DNA from: Neisseriaceae bacterium JH1-16
Lineage (GTDB): Bacteria; Pseudomonadota; Gammaproteobacteria; Burkholderiales; Chromobacteriaceae
Reading direction: 5' to 3'
Length of the DNA stretch: 64,000 bases
Assembly: GCA_025989215.1 (NCBI GenBank)
Contig: JAPDNP010000002.1
Coordinates: 558,001 to 622,000 of the forward strand
Both the position numbers and the translations under genes were made by a program. How positions within the stretch are numbered: the first letter of the stretch is position 1; every line of letters starts with the position of its first letter. The notes beneath the pieces were generated by a model, which was given only the letters and a program-made list of their open reading frames with translations, made no database searches and was not told the origin of the DNA. This document shows positions 4,078 through 32,036 of this stretch, one piece after another.

Positions 4078-5853
4078 ATGAACGAACAACTCGCGCATAC
4101 CAAACTCAACCGCGCCATACAGCAACTTGGCGCGGGCCAACCGGCCCAGGCACGCGCCACGCTGCAGCCAGTGCTGAAGGCCTATCCAGACAGTCCACAG
4201 CTGCACCTGTTGATGGGGTTGGCTCTGGTGAAGCTGGTTCAGAACGATGGAGCGCTACGCCATTTCGGCCAAGCCATCGCACTGGAACCGCGCATGGCCG
4301 AGGCCTATGTGAACCGCGGCATCGTGCTGAAGAACCGCGGCCGGCTGGACGAGGCGCAAGCCGATCTGGACCGTGCCATCGCGCTGCGCCCCGACCTTGC
4401 CGAGGCCCATTACAACCGCGGCAATGTACGGCTGGCGCGCCAGCAGCTATCGGCAGCGCGTGAGGATTTTGCCAACGCGGTAAGGCTCAATCCGCACTAC
4501 GCCGATGCACTGGCCAACCTGGGCGAGCTACTGACACGTAGCGGCGCCTTCGCCGACGCGCTGCCGCTGCTGCAGCGGGCGGTGGCGCTGCAGCCGGACC
4601 GGGCCGAGTCCCACGACAGCCTGGGCAATGCCCTGAGCGGGCTGATCCGCCACGAGGAAGCCATTGCCGCCTACCAGACCGCTCTGAAGCTGAAGCCGCG
4701 TCAACCCGACGTGCTGGCTCACCTCGCCAACGCCCTGGCCGAATGCGAACGCTACGACGAGGCGGCCCAGTGCTTCGACACACTGCTCCAGGCGCAGCCA
4801 CGCCATGCGCAGGGGCTGAACGCCAAGTCGCATATGCTGGCCGCTCAGGGCCGTCATGACGAGGCCCGCCAGCTGCTGGAGCAGGCTTTGGAAATCAACC
4901 CGGACTTCGCGCTGGCTGAGTTCAACCTGGCTCTGCTGTTGCTGCGCCAGGGTGACTACGCGGCCGGCTGGCGCCATTACGAGGCACGCCACCATGACCC
5001 GGCGACGCGGCGCACCTGCGCCTTGCGCGAGTTCACCCAAGCCGAATGGCAGGGCGAGGACTTGACCGGCAAGACCCTGGTACTGCATCAGGAGCAAGGG
5101 CTGGGCGATACCATCCAGATGCTGCGCTACCTGCCGCTGTTGGCCGAACGTGGCGCCCGGCTGATCCTGCTGGTCTCGCCCCCCCTGACCGAGCTGGCCG
5201 CTTCGCTAGGTACGGCCGTCGAGATCATTACCACGGTCGATGTGCTTCCGCCGTTCGACCTGCATTGCCCGCTGATGTCGCTGCCGCTACATCTGGCCAC
5301 CACGCTGGACAGCATCCCGGCGGCTCAGGGCTATCTCGCCGCCGATGCCGAGCGACAAGGCCAATGGGCCCAACGCCTGGGCCCGCACCGCAAGCCACGC
5401 ATCGGCCTGGTATGGTCGGGCTCGCGCCATCACAGCAACGACCGGCGTCGCAGCCTGCCGCTGGGCGTGCTGAACGAACTGCTGTCACTGGACGCGGAGT
5501 TCCACTCGCTACAACGGGACTACAGGGAAAGCGCGGACGAGATCGCTGCACAGGGTATTCAGGACCATGCCGCGGACCTGCACAGTCTGGCCGACACCGC
5601 CGCGCTGATCGCCCAGCTGGATGTGGTGATCAGCGTCGACACCTCGGTAGCGCACCTGGCCGGCGCGCTCGGCAAGCCATGCTGGCTGCTGCTGCCGGCG
5701 TTGCCTGACTTCCGCTGGGGGCTGGCACACAGCGACAGCCCCTGGTATGCCAGCATGACGCTGTTCCGCCAGGGCGCCGACCAGCAGTGGCCGCCGGTGA
5801 TCGACGCATTGCGCAGCCATGCCGAGGCATGGCTGAACCGTCAACCCGACTGA
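4078..5853 (+). CDS. Tetratricopeptide-repeat protein with glycosyltransferase-like C-terminus
   Basis: 591 residues. The first about 300 residues are consecutive 34-residue TPR units (for example AEAYVNRGIVLKNRGRLDEA and AEAHYNRGNVRLARQQLSAA). The C-terminal part (about 330-585) resembles the glycosyltransferase-9/41-like domain of large bacterial TPR proteins: HQEQGLGDTIQMLRY, RIGLVWSGS..H..DRRRS, and VISVDTSVAHLAGALGKPCW. Such proteins are proposed to glycosylate proteins or surface glycans; a substrate cannot be named. It stands alone with no operon partner. Confidence 0.85.
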   Translation: MNEQLAHTKLNRAIQQLGAGQPAQARATLQPVLKAYPDSPQLHLLMGLALVKLVQNDGALRHFGQAIALEPRMAEAYVNRGIVLKNRGRLDEAQADLDRAIALRPDLAEAHYNRGNVRLARQQLSAAREDFANAVRLNPHYADALANLGELLTRSGAFADALPLLQRAVALQPDRAESHDSLGNALSGLIRHEEAIAAYQTALKLKPRQPDVLAHLANALAECERYDEAAQCFDTLLQAQPRHAQGLNAKSHMLAAQGRHDEARQLLEQALEINPDFALAEFNLALLLLRQGDYAAGWRHYEARHHDPATRRTCALREFTQAEWQGEDLTGKTLVLHQEQGLGDTIQMLRYLPLLAERGARLILLVSPPLTELAASLGTAVEIITTVDVLPPFDLHCPLMSLPLHLATTLDSIPAAQGYLAADAERQGQWAQRLGPHRKPRIGLVWSGSRHHSNDRRRSLPLGVLNELLSLDAEFHSLQRDYRESADEIAAQGIQDHAADLHSLADTAALIAQLDVVISVDTSVAHLAGALGKPCWLLLPALPDFRWGLAHSDSPWYASMTLFRQGADQQWPPVIDALRSHAEAWLNRQPD

Positions 5854-24275: not shown

Positions 24276-24794
24276 ATGTTTACGTTTCCCAGCGATGAGG
24301 TGAAGGCAATGCGAAAGCGAAACTGGAAATCCGTACGCCCCTCCAGCCTGTCCGAGGCTTTCGAGATGTGTGTCGAATATGCGGCCGAACATCGCCGCCC
24401 GGTAAAGGTGTTGGCCGATTTGATGGGTGTCGAGGTGAAGACCCTGTATCGCTGGCTGGCCGACACCTCTATGCCGCTTAACCGGCTACGTCAGTTTGAG
24501 GCGTTTTGCGGCGCGACTTTTATCAGCGAGTACCTGTGCCTGGCACACGGCAACAAGGTGGTGATCGAGGTGCCAACCGGCAAGAAGGCAGCCGTTGCGG
24601 ACCTAGCAGAGAGCCAAGCCAACGTCGCGGCCACCTTCGCTTTGTTGGCGCGGTTCTACCAGAACGGCGAAGCAATGGAAGAGACGCTATCGGCCATCAC
24701 TAGGTCACTGACGGAGTTTGCCTACCACCGCGAAAACGTTCAGAAATCCGGCCGCCCCGAACTGGCGCTTTTCGGCGAGGAAAAGCGTGCATGA
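24276..24794 (+). CDS. Early phage protein with HTH-like segment
   Basis: 172 residues (161 if the better ribosome-site ATG at 24309 is used). VLADLMGVEVKTLYRWLADTSMPLNRLRQFEAFCG (about residues 45-79) looks like a helix-turn-helix. The C-terminal half is helical and Ala-rich. Proteins of this kind sit between Ner and transposase in several Mu-like phages; the function is not known to me. The stop overlaps the transposase start (ATGA). Confidence 0.7.
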   Translation: MFTFPSDEVKAMRKRNWKSVRPSSLSEAFEMCVEYAAEHRRPVKVLADLMGVEVKTLYRWLADTSMPLNRLRQFEAFCGATFISEYLCLAHGNKVVIEVPTGKKAAVADLAESQANVAATFALLARFYQNGEAMEETLSAITRSLTEFAYHRENVQKSGRPELALFGEEKRA

Positions 24795-26938
24795 GCCAAC
24801 CTCTCATCAAGACCCATTACAGCGCAGCTGAACTCGCAGCGATGAAGCTCGAAGGGTTGCCTGTCAGTAAAGGGAAAGTAATCGCCAAGGCCGAACGCGA
24901 GTCTTGGCCGTTCGAGGAAGTAAAAGGGGTGGGCGGCACTCGCCGCGAATACGCCCCACCCGCCGTCATCCTCGCCGCTATTAAGACCAAGGCCGCTACT
25001 GTCGTAGCTGCCACTATGCCTGCCCGGTCGCTGCCGGCGCGTCGCGAAGAGCAGCTACCACTGATCGAAACCGAGGCACAGGCGCTGAAGGCCGATGCCC
25101 GCCGTGGTGTGCTGCAGGCGCTGGAACTGTTGATGCAGCGTTCGGGCTACCCGATGAAGAAAGCCTCCACTGTGCTGCTCGATATGGCTCGCCTTGGCCA
25201 GGCCAATGAGCAGCTGGTCGGGATGCTCAAGATGGCGCGCGACGAGCGTGGCCGCAAGAGCCCAGATGGCCTGCCCTCGGTGCGCAGTGTGTTGCGCTTC
25301 GTCGAGTACGAGCGCGCCGGGATGCTGGCACCGAAGAAACGCGAGCGCGACATGAGCGTGCCTGCGTGGGCGCCGTTCTTCCTGGGCTACTACCAGCGCC
25401 CCGAAAAGCCCACGGTCGAACATGCCTACCGCGCCTTCTGCGTCGACTGGGCACAGGCCCAACCCGGCGCCGAAGTGCCGAGCGTTCACAAAGTGCGCCG
25501 TTTTCTGGCCAAGGTCGGCAACGTCAGCCGCGAGGTCGGTCGTCTGGGCGAGCGCGAATTGAAGACGCTCAAGCCATTCATCCGCCGTGGCTTCGACAAG
25601 CTGCTGCCGGGCGACATCTACAGCGCGGACGGCCACACCTTCGACGCCGAGGTGCAGCATCCGCAGCACGGCCGCCCATTCCGGCCGGAGATCACCACGA
25701 TGGTCGACATCGCTACCCGCAAGACGGTGGGCTGGTCGGTCGACTTGGCCGAAAGCGCCCTGGCGGTGCTGGATGCGCTGCGCGATGCCAGCCTGAAGGC
25801 AGGCATCCCGGCGGTGTTCTATGTGGACAACGGCTCCGGTTACAAGAACCAGATGATGAATGACGTGGCCACGGGCTTCATGGCCCGGCTCGGCATCGAG
25901 ATGGTGAACAGCCTGCCGTACAACTCCCAAGCGCGGGGGGTGATCGAGCGGCTGCATCAGACCATTTGGGTCAACGCGGCCAAGAGCCTGCCGGGCTACA
26001 TCGGTCACGACATGGACCGCGAGGCCAAGCTGGCCACCTTCAAGCTGTCGCGCAAGGCCATCGCCAAGTCCGGCGAAGTGCAAGCCATGCCGCTGATGAG
26101 CTGGCCGCAGTTCGTCGCCTTCTGCGACCAGAAGGTGGCCGAGTACAACGACCGCCCGCACCGCAGCCTGCCGAAGATCACCGACCCAGCGACCGGCCGC
26201 CGCCGCCACATGACACCGAACGAGAAGTGGGCCTTGCACGAGGCGCAGGGTTTCGCCGCCCACCGCGTCACTGACGACGAAGCACGCCCGCTGTTCCGCC
26301 CGCAGGTGCTGCGCACTGTGCGCCGCTGCGAGCTGGAGGTGTTCAACAACCGCTATTTCGCCCGTGCGCTGGAAGAGTTCCACGGTGAACAGCTGCGGGT
26401 CGGCTACGACATCCACGACCCCAACACCGTCTGGGTCTACGACGAGGATGGCCGCTTTATCTGCACCGCCGAGCTGGACGCCAACAAGCGCGACTACATG
26501 CCGCAATCGGTCATCGAGCGTGCCCGCGACAAGCGCGCCGCCGGCCGCGAGAAGCGTCTGGAAAGCAAGTTGGCCGAGGTACGAGAGGAGCGGAACGGCC
26601 GGCCGGTGCTTACCGTGGTCAGCGAGACCGTGATTCCAGGGTTGTCTGGCCGCGAGATTGCCGGCGCCTTCGAGCGCTTGGTCGAGCCGGTCGAGGCGTT
26701 AGAGCGGGCCTCCCCAGTCAGAACGATTAACGCTCCGGTCGACATCGAAAGCGGCTTTGCCGTGCCAGCTGCGCCGGAGCAGCGCATCCAGGCCTGGCTA
26801 GAGCTGAGCGAACGCGCCGAACACGGTGCACCGCTCAGTGAGAAAGAGACCCGTTGGCTGGGCAGCTACGCCAAGAGCCATGAATTCCGCGTGATGAACC
26901 AGAAACAGAACGAACTGCGTCAAGCCTCGGCTTGGTAA
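24791..26938 (+). CDS. Transposase A, MuA-like DDE recombinase
   Basis: 715 residues, near the usual MuA size. The order is an N-terminal Mu-type DNA-binding domain (7-55), a helical end-binding region (100-240), the DDE catalytic core with D280 (YSADGH), D346 (YVDNGSG) and E386 (GVIERLH), a beta-barrel-like region rich in RY/RR motifs (about 490-580), and a C-terminal B-interacting tail. It catalyses strand transfer during integration and replicative transposition. All three acidic residues are intact. The N-terminal domain is shared with the repressor. Confidence 0.93.
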   Translation: MSQPLIKTHYSAAELAAMKLEGLPVSKGKVIAKAERESWPFEEVKGVGGTRREYAPPAVILAAIKTKAATVVAATMPARSLPARREEQLPLIETEAQALKADARRGVLQALELLMQRSGYPMKKASTVLLDMARLGQANEQLVGMLKMARDERGRKSPDGLPSVRSVLRFVEYERAGMLAPKKRERDMSVPAWAPFFLGYYQRPEKPTVEHAYRAFCVDWAQAQPGAEVPSVHKVRRFLAKVGNVSREVGRLGERELKTLKPFIRRGFDKLLPGDIYSADGHTFDAEVQHPQHGRPFRPEITTMVDIATRKTVGWSVDLAESALAVLDALRDASLKAGIPAVFYVDNGSGYKNQMMNDVATGFMARLGIEMVNSLPYNSQARGVIERLHQTIWVNAAKSLPGYIGHDMDREAKLATFKLSRKAIAKSGEVQAMPLMSWPQFVAFCDQKVAEYNDRPHRSLPKITDPATGRRRHMTPNEKWALHEAQGFAAHRVTDDEARPLFRPQVLRTVRRCELEVFNNRYFARALEEFHGEQLRVGYDIHDPNTVWVYDEDGRFICTAELDANKRDYMPQSVIERARDKRAAGREKRLESKLAEVREERNGRPVLTVVSETVIPGLSGREIAGAFERLVEPVEALERASPVRTINAPVDIESGFAVPAAPEQRIQAWLELSERAEHGAPLSEKETRWLGSYAKSHEFRVMNQKQNELRQASAW

Positions 26939-30589: not shown

Positions 30590-30599
30590 AGGCGCCGCG

Positions 30600-31025
30600 A
30601 TGACACTGACGACGGAACAAAAGCAGGAACTGATCAACAAGCTGTCCACCCCCTGGGGGAGTGTGCATCTGCTTTGCGATGGGAGCCGGATTGACCTGGT
30701 CGTGGAGCCTTGCAAAGGGCTGAAATACCGCGTGACGACCTACGTAAATGGCCACTGGAAGGGCGAATGGATCGATGGCTCGAAATCCTTTCCAGAGCAG
30801 AAATTCCTGAACAAGTCGACGCGCCCTCTGGTGAAAAAGGCAGACCTGGAAAAGATGGAGAAAACTGCAGGCAAGCGCCTCTTCAAGAAAATGTGCGCGG
30901 AAGACTCCTATTGGACTAAGACCATCACCCTCTACAACCCCAGCTGGGCAAGCGGGAAGTCTGCCATCAATCACCTGTGCAAAGTCTGCGACTCCATCCA
31001 GGTCGTGACCGAAGAGACCGTTTAG
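30600..31025 (+). CDS. Phage protein of unknown function
   Basis: 141 residues, mixed alpha/beta, Lys/Trp-rich (VTTYVNGHWKGEWIDGS, KKMCAEDSYWTKTITLYNPSW). I do not recognise a family. GAAGGCGCCGCG precedes the ATG. It is the last gene before the structured RNA region at 31087. Confidence 0.65.
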   Translation: MTLTTEQKQELINKLSTPWGSVHLLCDGSRIDLVVEPCKGLKYRVTTYVNGHWKGEWIDGSKSFPEQKFLNKSTRPLVKKADLEKMEKTAGKRLFKKMCAEDSYWTKTITLYNPSWASGKSAINHLCKVCDSIQVVTEETV

Positions 31026-31086
31026 AGCCCGGTGTCGAGCCGGCCAAATAGGTCGGTTCCGCAACGTGTTTTAACAGTGACAAATA

Positions 31087-31182
31087 GCCTGCAACGGTGA
31101 GCGATCCATATCTGATTAACCCTAACCGGAGACTCAGATAATCCGTCCTCTGAAAACCAGAGGATCGCTCACCCCTGCAGGC
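31087..31182 (+). ncRNA. Structured RNA, three-way junction, leader of gemA
   Basis: Nested perfect pairings: GCCTGCA (31087-31093) with TGCAGGC (31176-31182), then GTGAGCGAT (31097-31105) with ATCGCTCAC (31164-31172), enclosing two hairpins, TATCTGA/TCAGATA (31109-31115 with 31134-31140, 18-nt loop) and CCTCTG/CAGAGG (31147-31152 with 31158-31163, 5-nt loop). No frame spans it. It ends 18 nt before the gemA ATG, so it is either a cis-regulatory leader or a processed small RNA. I could not match a known ribozyme core. The c4 antisense RNA class of phages is one comparison to run. Confidence 0.6.
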
Positions 31183-31200
31183 TCCAGACAAGGGGGACTG

Positions 31201-31608
31201 ATGAAGCAAGCAACACTGGCGAAGATCCACATCGCCAAAAAAGAATTGGGCCTGGATGACGGCACTTACCGCGCAATGCTGCAGACGGTAGCCGGTGTCA
31301 CGTCGAGCAAAGACCTGACTGCGGCAGGCTCCGCGAAGGTACTGGAGCATTTGAAGCGCTGCGGATGGAAGCCGAAAGCATCGGCTCATGCCGACCGCAA
31401 ACCGAAGGCAAGCGCACCACGCCGCGCCCTGATCGGCAAGATCGAGGCGCTGCTAGCCGAAGCCAGCCGGTCCTGGGCCTACGCCGATGCGATGGCACAG
31501 AAGATGTTCCAGGTAGAAAAGCTGGAGTGGCTGACACCGGAGCAACTGGTGAAGGTGGTGGCGGCACTGACCTATGACGCGAAGCGCCACGGGAGAGAGC
31601 TGGGATGA
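31201..31608 (+). CDS. gemA: GemA-like protein (Mu gp16, DUF1018)
   Basis: 135 residues. LAKIHIAKKELGLDDGTYRAMLQTVAGVTSSKDLTAAG and VLEHLKRCGWKPKA are the DUF1018 hallmarks of Mu GemA, which modulates host gene expression and DNA supercoiling. The C-terminal half is helical. A purine-rich AAGGGGG lies upstream of the ATG, just after the structured RNA. It overlaps mor by 4 nt. Confidence 0.87.
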   Translation: MKQATLAKIHIAKKELGLDDGTYRAMLQTVAGVTSSKDLTAAGSAKVLEHLKRCGWKPKASAHADRKPKASAPRRALIGKIEALLAEASRSWAYADAMAQKMFQVEKLEWLTPEQLVKVVAALTYDAKRHGRELG

Positions 31609-32036
31609 AACTGGAAACTGTAGAACACCTGCTGCCGGAGATGGCTCAATTGATCGCTGAGTTGATTGGAACGTCTCGTGCGCTGAAGCTGATCGAGGTT
31701 TGGGGTGGGACTACGTTTCCAGTCTCCAAGAACAAACGTCGCGATGGTCAGATCCGCTTCGAAGCGCTCGCCGAAGTGGTCGGTGTTGAAGCGGCCAACA
31801 CACTGACCCGTCACTTCGGGGGCGAGGTATTGTCTATACCACGTTGTGCTGCTGCCATGCGGGAGGTCCGCGACCGCATGATCCGCGCAGAGTTCGACTC
31901 GGAAACCCGCGAACACTCGGCTATCCATGTTGTCAGCCAGCTCGCCAGAAAGTACCAGATGACCGAACGTTGGGTGTGGTGCGTGCTGAAAAAAGCAGAC
32001 CAAACTAGCGAGACAAGGCAGGAAGCACTGTTTTAG
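31605..32036 (+). CDS. mor: Mor-like middle/late transcription activator
   Basis: 143 residues of the Mor/C family: VEHLLPEMAQLIAELIGTSRALKLIEVWGGTTFPVSK, then LAEVVGVEAANTLTRHFGGEVLSIPRC, and a C-terminal helix-turn-helix (IHVVSQLARKYQMTERWVWCVLKKA). In Mu, Mor dimers activate the middle promoter that drives C. No separate C gene is seen, so this protein may drive the late genes directly. Coupled to gemA by ATGA. Confidence 0.88.
   Translation: MKLETVEHLLPEMAQLIAELIGTSRALKLIEVWGGTTFPVSKNKRRDGQIRFEALAEVVGVEAANTLTRHFGGEVLSIPRCAAAMREVRDRMIRAEFDSETREHSAIHVVSQLARKYQMTERWVWCVLKKADQTSETRQEALF

Follow-up and report, generated by a model that had tools for sequence, protein, structure and literature searches.

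Four described systems come closest to the elements reported here. The hammerhead is a self-cutting site, c4 antisense RNA is a phage-borne folded RNA carried in an operon, and put of phage HK022 is an antitermination RNA. RAGATH motifs are reportedly structured RNAs that were mined near ribozyme-associated genes. Two earlier studies bear on why such RNAs should occur in prophages. The part of PMC3088659 available to us proposes that hammerheads flanking prophage genes cut long transcripts into operon-length or gene-length mRNAs, and the part of PMC10085705 available to us names Mu-like phage genes as those with which hammerhead and twister ribozymes show their strongest association, for a reason described as unknown.

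The locus studied here is the early operon of a transposable prophage in a host genome of 4.6 Mb, and it was analyzed within a window, meaning the whole stretch of 64,000 nt. With genes picked from the list of open reading frames, the intergenic gaps between 28627 and 32036 are all 10 nt or shorter except for one of 175 nt before gemA (31026-31200), which houses two structured elements, A and B. The features are as follows, with the strands of A and B as argued below.

24791-26938: transposase (phrog_310)
30600-31025, plus strand: gene 5' of the gap, 141 aa, function unknown (open reading frame list; match to phrog_5671)
31023-31073, plus strand: element A, an irregular hairpin starting at the stop codon of the 141-aa gene (model R2, alignment A5)
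31086-31183, plus strand: element B, a three-way junction of P1, P2, and P3 (shuffles, model R1, covariation)
31086-31093, plus strand: outer 5' strand of P1, pairing with 31176-31183 (alignment covariation)
31096-31107, plus strand: inner 5' strand of P1, holding the conserved GAGCG and pairing with 31162-31173 (alignment covariation)
31111-31114, plus strand: 5' strand of P2, UCUG, pairing with CGGA at 31127-31130; alternatively, 31109-31115 pairs with 31134-31140
31142-31161, plus strand: P3 hairpin with the loop GUCCUCUGAAAAC in the window, the best-conserved stretch; alternative hairpin 31146-31152/31158-31164
31162-31183, plus strand: 3' strand of P1, inner part 31162-31173, outer part 31176-31183
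31201-31608, plus strand: gemA (PF06252)
31605-32036, plus strand: mor, late transcription activator (PF08765, phrog_836)

In the accessible part of a preprint (PMC12407980), a phage GemA is described as able to render DNA a target of the Gabija defence, and control of gemA may therefore matter for defence.

In the window plus 34 loci in all, neither A nor B was matched above cut-off by any Rfam 15 family, so that the covariance search suggested with the original prediction placed B in no known family, and no description of either element was found in the literature searched. B is a new family without an Rfam 15 match, set apart by this comparison from Rfam families only. Several candidates at or beside B fell below cut-off and were rejected: CRISPR-DR61 in the window (17.6 bits), PA5194_thermometer on its minus strand (17.3 bits), gntR-DTE in L311 (22.6 bits), and sR14 in L312 (15.4 bits). 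A separate Rfam match, to sRNA-Xcc1 (RF02221, 68 bits), lies on the minus strand at 215-299 of L397, in the same locus as a gemA gene. The type II hammerhead (RF02276) resembles A and B in being structured and operon-internal and in occupying the same gap before gemA at 7 of 32 family loci. However, A and B lack its core and score no match to its model, and at one locus B can stand beside a hammerhead. The absence of hammerhead core residues from the window, as first claimed, was borne out in two ways: RF02276 (>37 bits) had no match in the window, nor at E <= 5 in 30900-31300, and the pattern (core CUGANGA / GAAA / NUH with three stems) was found on neither window strand by a scan that misses some of the hammerheads found with Rfam. 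The hammerhead idea was close, in that some relatives carry true hammerheads in the same gap before gemA. Like RAGATH motifs, A and B lie near Mu-like phage genes that attract ribozymes, but they have no Rfam match above cut-off, in a comparison that covers Rfam-listed motifs only. They recall HK022 put as adjacent structured RNA elements in a phage early operon; unlike the parts of that system, A and B each occur without the other.

In the window, which is a member of the R1 seed, B matches model R1 at 84.4 bits. The minimum free energy of 31087-31182 is -46.9 kcal/mol versus -19.3 +/- 3.1 kcal/mol for 200 dinucleotide shuffles (z -8.9); none of the 200 was equally stable, which rules out a chance fold. 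The four perfect helices described in the original prediction are all present where it placed them: GCCTGCA/TGCAGGC (31087-31093/31176-31182, 7 bp), GGTGAGCGA/TCGCTCACC (9 bp, inside a 12-bp stem at 31096-31107/31162-31173), TATCTGA/TCAGATA (31109-31115/31134-31140, 7 bp), and CCTCTG/CAGAGG (31147-31152/31158-31163, 6 bp). The distance to gemA was also given correctly, with 18 nt between 31182 and the ATG at 31201. The proposed architecture of the three-way junction held in part. All four helices pair, but the 7-bp helix at 31109-31115 and the 6-bp helix are, on the alignment, alternatives of the window's own subgroup, and the conserved P2 and P3 are different ones. The conserved fold consists of P1 (8+12 bp), P2 (UCUG/CGGA in the window), and P3 (UCCG..CAGA). 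Pairing of 31109-31115 with 31134-31140 requires an 8-nt insert that, among ten aligned copies, is present only in the window, L075, and L076, and P3 of the window contains one C.A mismatch, with an alternative 7-bp hairpin possible there. A coding role for B was rejected because, by eye, the reading frames that follow an AUG vary among relatives.

The check for compensatory changes in relatives came out in favor of the structure. In an alignment of ten copies, under a structure that we specified, 96.6% of cells were paired and 11 of 29 pairs had changed on both sides. Among 36 copies (31 of them distinct), 94.0% of cells were paired and 22 of the 29 pairs showed changes on both sides (170 double-change cells), and 0 of 500 shuffles scored as high on four of five measures, the covariation score included. 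The fifth measure, further pair types, was not above shuffles, being reached by 407/500 with ten copies and by 47/500 with the larger alignment. Because the larger alignment was built by fitting copies to a model of the ten-copy one, it leans towards the structure, but the margin over slid controls is large: when partners were slid by 1 to 3 columns, 23 to 39% of cells were paired (24 to 39% in the larger alignment) versus 97 and 94% for the B structure. The structure of B is genuinely conserved, compensatory changes included. It is about 85 to 98 nt long. The 8+12 pairs of P1 surround a small internal loop and vary widely in sequence, with GAGCGG-like letters retained in the inner part; P2 is short and variable across copies, as are the junction linkers; and the loop of P3, GUCCUCUGA, is near-invariant and more conserved than most stems.

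Element A has a core of nonstandard G.A, U.G, and C.C pairs, and the window copy, a member of the R2 seed, matches model R2 at 75.1 bits. In an alignment fitted to that model, 96.7% of cells were paired and 9 of 19 pairs, core pairs included, had changed on both sides; none of 500 shuffles was as high on any of the five measures. In the divergent members L282, L294, and L296 the G.A, U.G, and C.C pairs are kept while adjoining pairs covary (by eye). The plus strand is favored for A. There are 91 G.U cells, of which 62 lie in two column pairs where almost every row has G.U or U.G, and the wobble count without those two is 29 versus 18; the predicted stability is greater on the plus strand in 28 of 33 copies. 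A was found in 16 of the 92 gemA loci searched, on the plus strand and with 69 to 215 nt between it and the gemA match; 8 also gave minus-strand echoes, which were weaker and were dropped from that search. In whole-genome searches, gemA adjoined A at 24 of 25 loci, and it is A, rather than B, that is tied to gemA. By eye, the gene upstream of A varies at L012, L079, L084, and L396 with A and gemA constant, an arrangement in which A marks a module boundary. At L398, an insert of more than 100 nt apparently separates the stem of A from its GGGTTTTAAC end; the split copy lies in the roughly 260 nt that precede gemA (match at 1501). L282, from a genome of another family, carries at 1501-1564 an A-like hairpin with compensatory changes and no gemA detected downstream. 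A loose A pattern in viral contigs returned at least 120 stretches (L155-L274), which went unused except for L166 and L181, both recovered by the P3-hairpin scan described below.

The position next to gemA is shared between A and the hammerhead. At the 32 gemA loci of the family, counted by hand from the coordinates of A, hammerhead, B, and gemA matches, the proximal slot holds A in 23, a type II hammerhead in 7, and neither in 2, one of which is L398 with its split A. A and a gemA-proximal hammerhead occur together at none of the 32. B stands between this slot and gemA in 16, with A in 15 and with a hammerhead in 1. The family genomes hold 24 type II hammerheads (15 of 61 genomes; none in the host genome), and in many relatives they also lie further upstream, sometimes as two around one or a few genes. 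Because 6 of the 7 hammerhead carriers have a distant GemA, kinship explains part of the split between A and hammerhead. The locus with hammerhead and B (L117, the same locus as L307 and the census copy L407) falls inside a supported five-member GemA clade (SH-aLRT 99) whose other members carry A (three) or a split A (one); one clade of A carriers has as its sister (SH-aLRT 85) a clade that combines Pseudomonas-phage GemA with hammerheads; and rows with A or a hammerhead require at least 3 changes on the tree. From these placements, on a quick tree of 104 rows and 136 columns with many forks open and a hammerhead taken as proximal within 420 nt, the occupant of the slot has probably changed on more than one occasion. 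The hammerhead pattern finder misses the Rfam finds at L015, L101, and one of two in L013, and these three were added by hand for the tree; a looser pattern gave 2 minus-strand matches in 1.35 Mb.

Paired type II hammerheads were seen at 4362-4424 and 4814-4876 of L117 and at 4385-4455 and 4899-4969 of L016, and L013, L015, L099, and L326 have two each. Such pairs lie in Mu-like early regions, 0.45 to 1 kb apart, around one or a few genes beside gemA. L075, a close relative of the window, has a type II hammerhead at 4327-4389, about 610 to 670 nt before gemA, where the window has a 10-nt gap (30590-30599) before the gene for 141 aa.

Our preferred reading, held tentatively and at a probability of about 0.4, is that B is a cis-acting element for the partition of mRNA, probably by processing at P1. 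B would be co-transcribed with the flanking genes of a polycistronic mRNA, would fold in the space from a stop codon to the ribosome-binding site that follows, and would set the cistron 3' of it, gemA-mor in the window, apart from the mRNA on its 5' side, in which way it may affect gemA. On this reading A, likewise, would be an intercistronic element of such an mRNA, in the slot where hammerheads cut it. The likeliest route would be an endonucleolytic cut of the RNase III type at the roughly 20-bp P1, stabilization of the resulting ends, or both; the length of P1, 20 model pairs, is compatible with such processing. In the gemA setting B stands beside A or, at one locus, beside a type II hammerhead. 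Neither a sigma-70-like promoter nor an intrinsic terminator (G+C-rich stem and then a T run; 0 sites) was found in 30900-31350, which fits an operon-internal element, and the anatomy, in which compact structures fill the space from a stop to the following start and share their slot with the hammerhead, fits a hammerhead-like job of cutting transcripts. Besides the strand counts and the settings of L345 and L332 given below, two features argue against mRNA partition: the near-invariant P3 loop exceeds what a plain RNase III substrate needs, and the restriction of B, carried by unrelated elements, to a single host family hints at a partner peculiar to the host.

The searches on which the second of these features rests recovered 28 confident copies of B in 18 of 61 Chromobacteriaceae genomes. 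An order-level sample of 300 genomes contained three with B matches, all Chromobacteriaceae, and a class-level sample of 369 contained a match in the host genome only; under the stricter filters used for these two samples, no genome outside the family matched. Family matches dropped as doubtful were G342 (two), G157, G224, G317, G312, and G304:C140 (E from 6e-4 to 0.76), and minus-strand echoes of the B palindrome were excluded from the counts. Viral contigs, which carry no host assignment, were scanned for the P3 hairpin, and 20 of the 35 loci found were confirmed by the model, the other 15 being dropped. By blastn, the window's gap and the B of L312 had no match in phage records, and the B of L324 had just a 24-base match in plasmid records, to a Streptomyces plasmid (E 0.9, chance). 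A dispersed repeat of the REP or MITE kind was rejected, there being too few copies (one in the host genome and at most five in any family genome, G338), and no target-site duplication was seen by eye at a few B flanks.

Sixteen of the 28 copies lie before gemA; in other prophages, ten lie after a replication gene of the nicking type; and two lie elsewhere. The nicking-gene context was checked at all ten loci, where the gene is related to the L312 protein, which matches phrog_91 (nicking at the replication origin); excisionase- or AlpA-type genes are among those 3' of B. The 126-aa upstream gene of this context has B at 8 of 8 loci of its close homologue and at 1 of 9 loci of a distant one (G001), with G321:C10, where the gene is split in two, entered once. 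In both the gemA and the nicking-gene contexts, B begins within tens of nucleotides of the stop codon on its 5' side, and a short distance separates its end from the start that follows. Other settings, read by eye, were a region resembling ssb and recombination genes, after a terminator (L331); a site near a ParA/TraL-like gene, also after a terminator, with the next open reading frame 161 nt from the start of B (L332); and a site before a terminator in a viral contig (L345). The arrangements at L345 and L332 indicate that B need not precede a ribosome-binding site.

This distribution leads to the main rival of partition in cis, namely, that B is a trans-acting, host-facing RNA, either a processed small RNA or a protein decoy, acting on a Chromobacteriaceae factor, for instance an RNA-binding regulator or a defence system. 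Its occurrence in Mu-like prophages, nicking-gene prophages, and other elements of one host family speaks for this, as does a P3 loop conserved beyond most stems. However, B has neither its own promoter nor its own terminator in the window and no known target, and its restriction to the family may stem from phage host range, sampling, the stricter filters, or the reach of the model. We regard such a role as doubtful, and we think it improbable that B is a host-facing trans RNA taken up separately by unrelated elements with A acting as a functional substitute for the hammerhead in the gemA gap.

Which strand of B is used has a bearing on a third explanation, in which B is folded DNA. Wobble pairs do not prove the strand: the ten-copy alignment has 13 G.U versus 4 A.C, the larger alignment has 22 versus 28, and the larger one without four poorly paired column pairs has 15 versus 9, and the predicted stability is greater on the minus strand in 28 of 31 copies. 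In its gemA and nicking-gene contexts, B runs the same way as the genes on either side, from which the plus strand would be the functional one. As the wobble pairs give no clear RNA strand, a role at the DNA level is retained as unlikely, in the form of a single-strand initiation site, a recombination or nicking site, or a protein-bound cruciform. The location of 10 of 28 copies downstream of a nicking-type replication gene would suit it. Against it, B sits in the gaps of gene arrays and is co-oriented where read, and its conserved hairpin loops suit RNA equally. Moreover, Mu-like phages replicate by transposition and should need no single-strand origin.

The original prediction had offered a leader controlling GemA and Mor synthesis. 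B does end 18 nt before gemA in the window, and it accompanies 16 of the 32 family gemA loci, but it is absent from the other 16, and 12 of the 28 confident family copies lie elsewhere than before gemA. With A, not B, going with gemA (24/25), we consider control of gemA and mor translation by B in cis quite improbable.

It seems very improbable that the hammerhead is replaced by A or B acting as a self-cleaving ribozyme from an unknown class. The mutual exclusion of A and gemA-proximal hammerheads at the 32 loci would accord with it, as would the enrichment of ribozymes near Mu-like phage genes in the available part of PMC10085705. However, the window has no Rfam ribozyme match, and the junction linkers of B are short and variable. 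A is one irregular helix with 9 of its 19 pairs changing on both sides, and as these include the core, few letters remain for a catalytic one. In the same part of PMC10085705, moreover, the HRIMA candidates other than hammerheads did not cleave.

The c4-like antisense RNA that had also been suggested, although B is likewise folded, phage-borne, and in an operon and has a conserved loop, is scarcely credible, since c4 was absent from the Rfam matches at E <= 5 (window stretch and 14 relatives) and complementarity between the P3 loop and the flanks within 1.5 kb on either side equalled that of shuffles (mean of 6.76 versus 6.74 nt; 25 loci, with the loop mis-picked in 4). Complements of 8 to 9 nt do occur at single loci, L316, L321, and L327 among others.

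B adds a family, supported by covariation, whose members are spread over unrelated mobile elements of a single host family, a pattern that points to either a cellular partner in common or a need that phage operons share. Through the exclusion between A and the hammerhead beside gemA, the purpose of phage hammerheads near Mu-like genes becomes open to testing. If A or B does the hammerhead's job without self-cleavage, that job would be the partition of mRNA and not catalysis as such.
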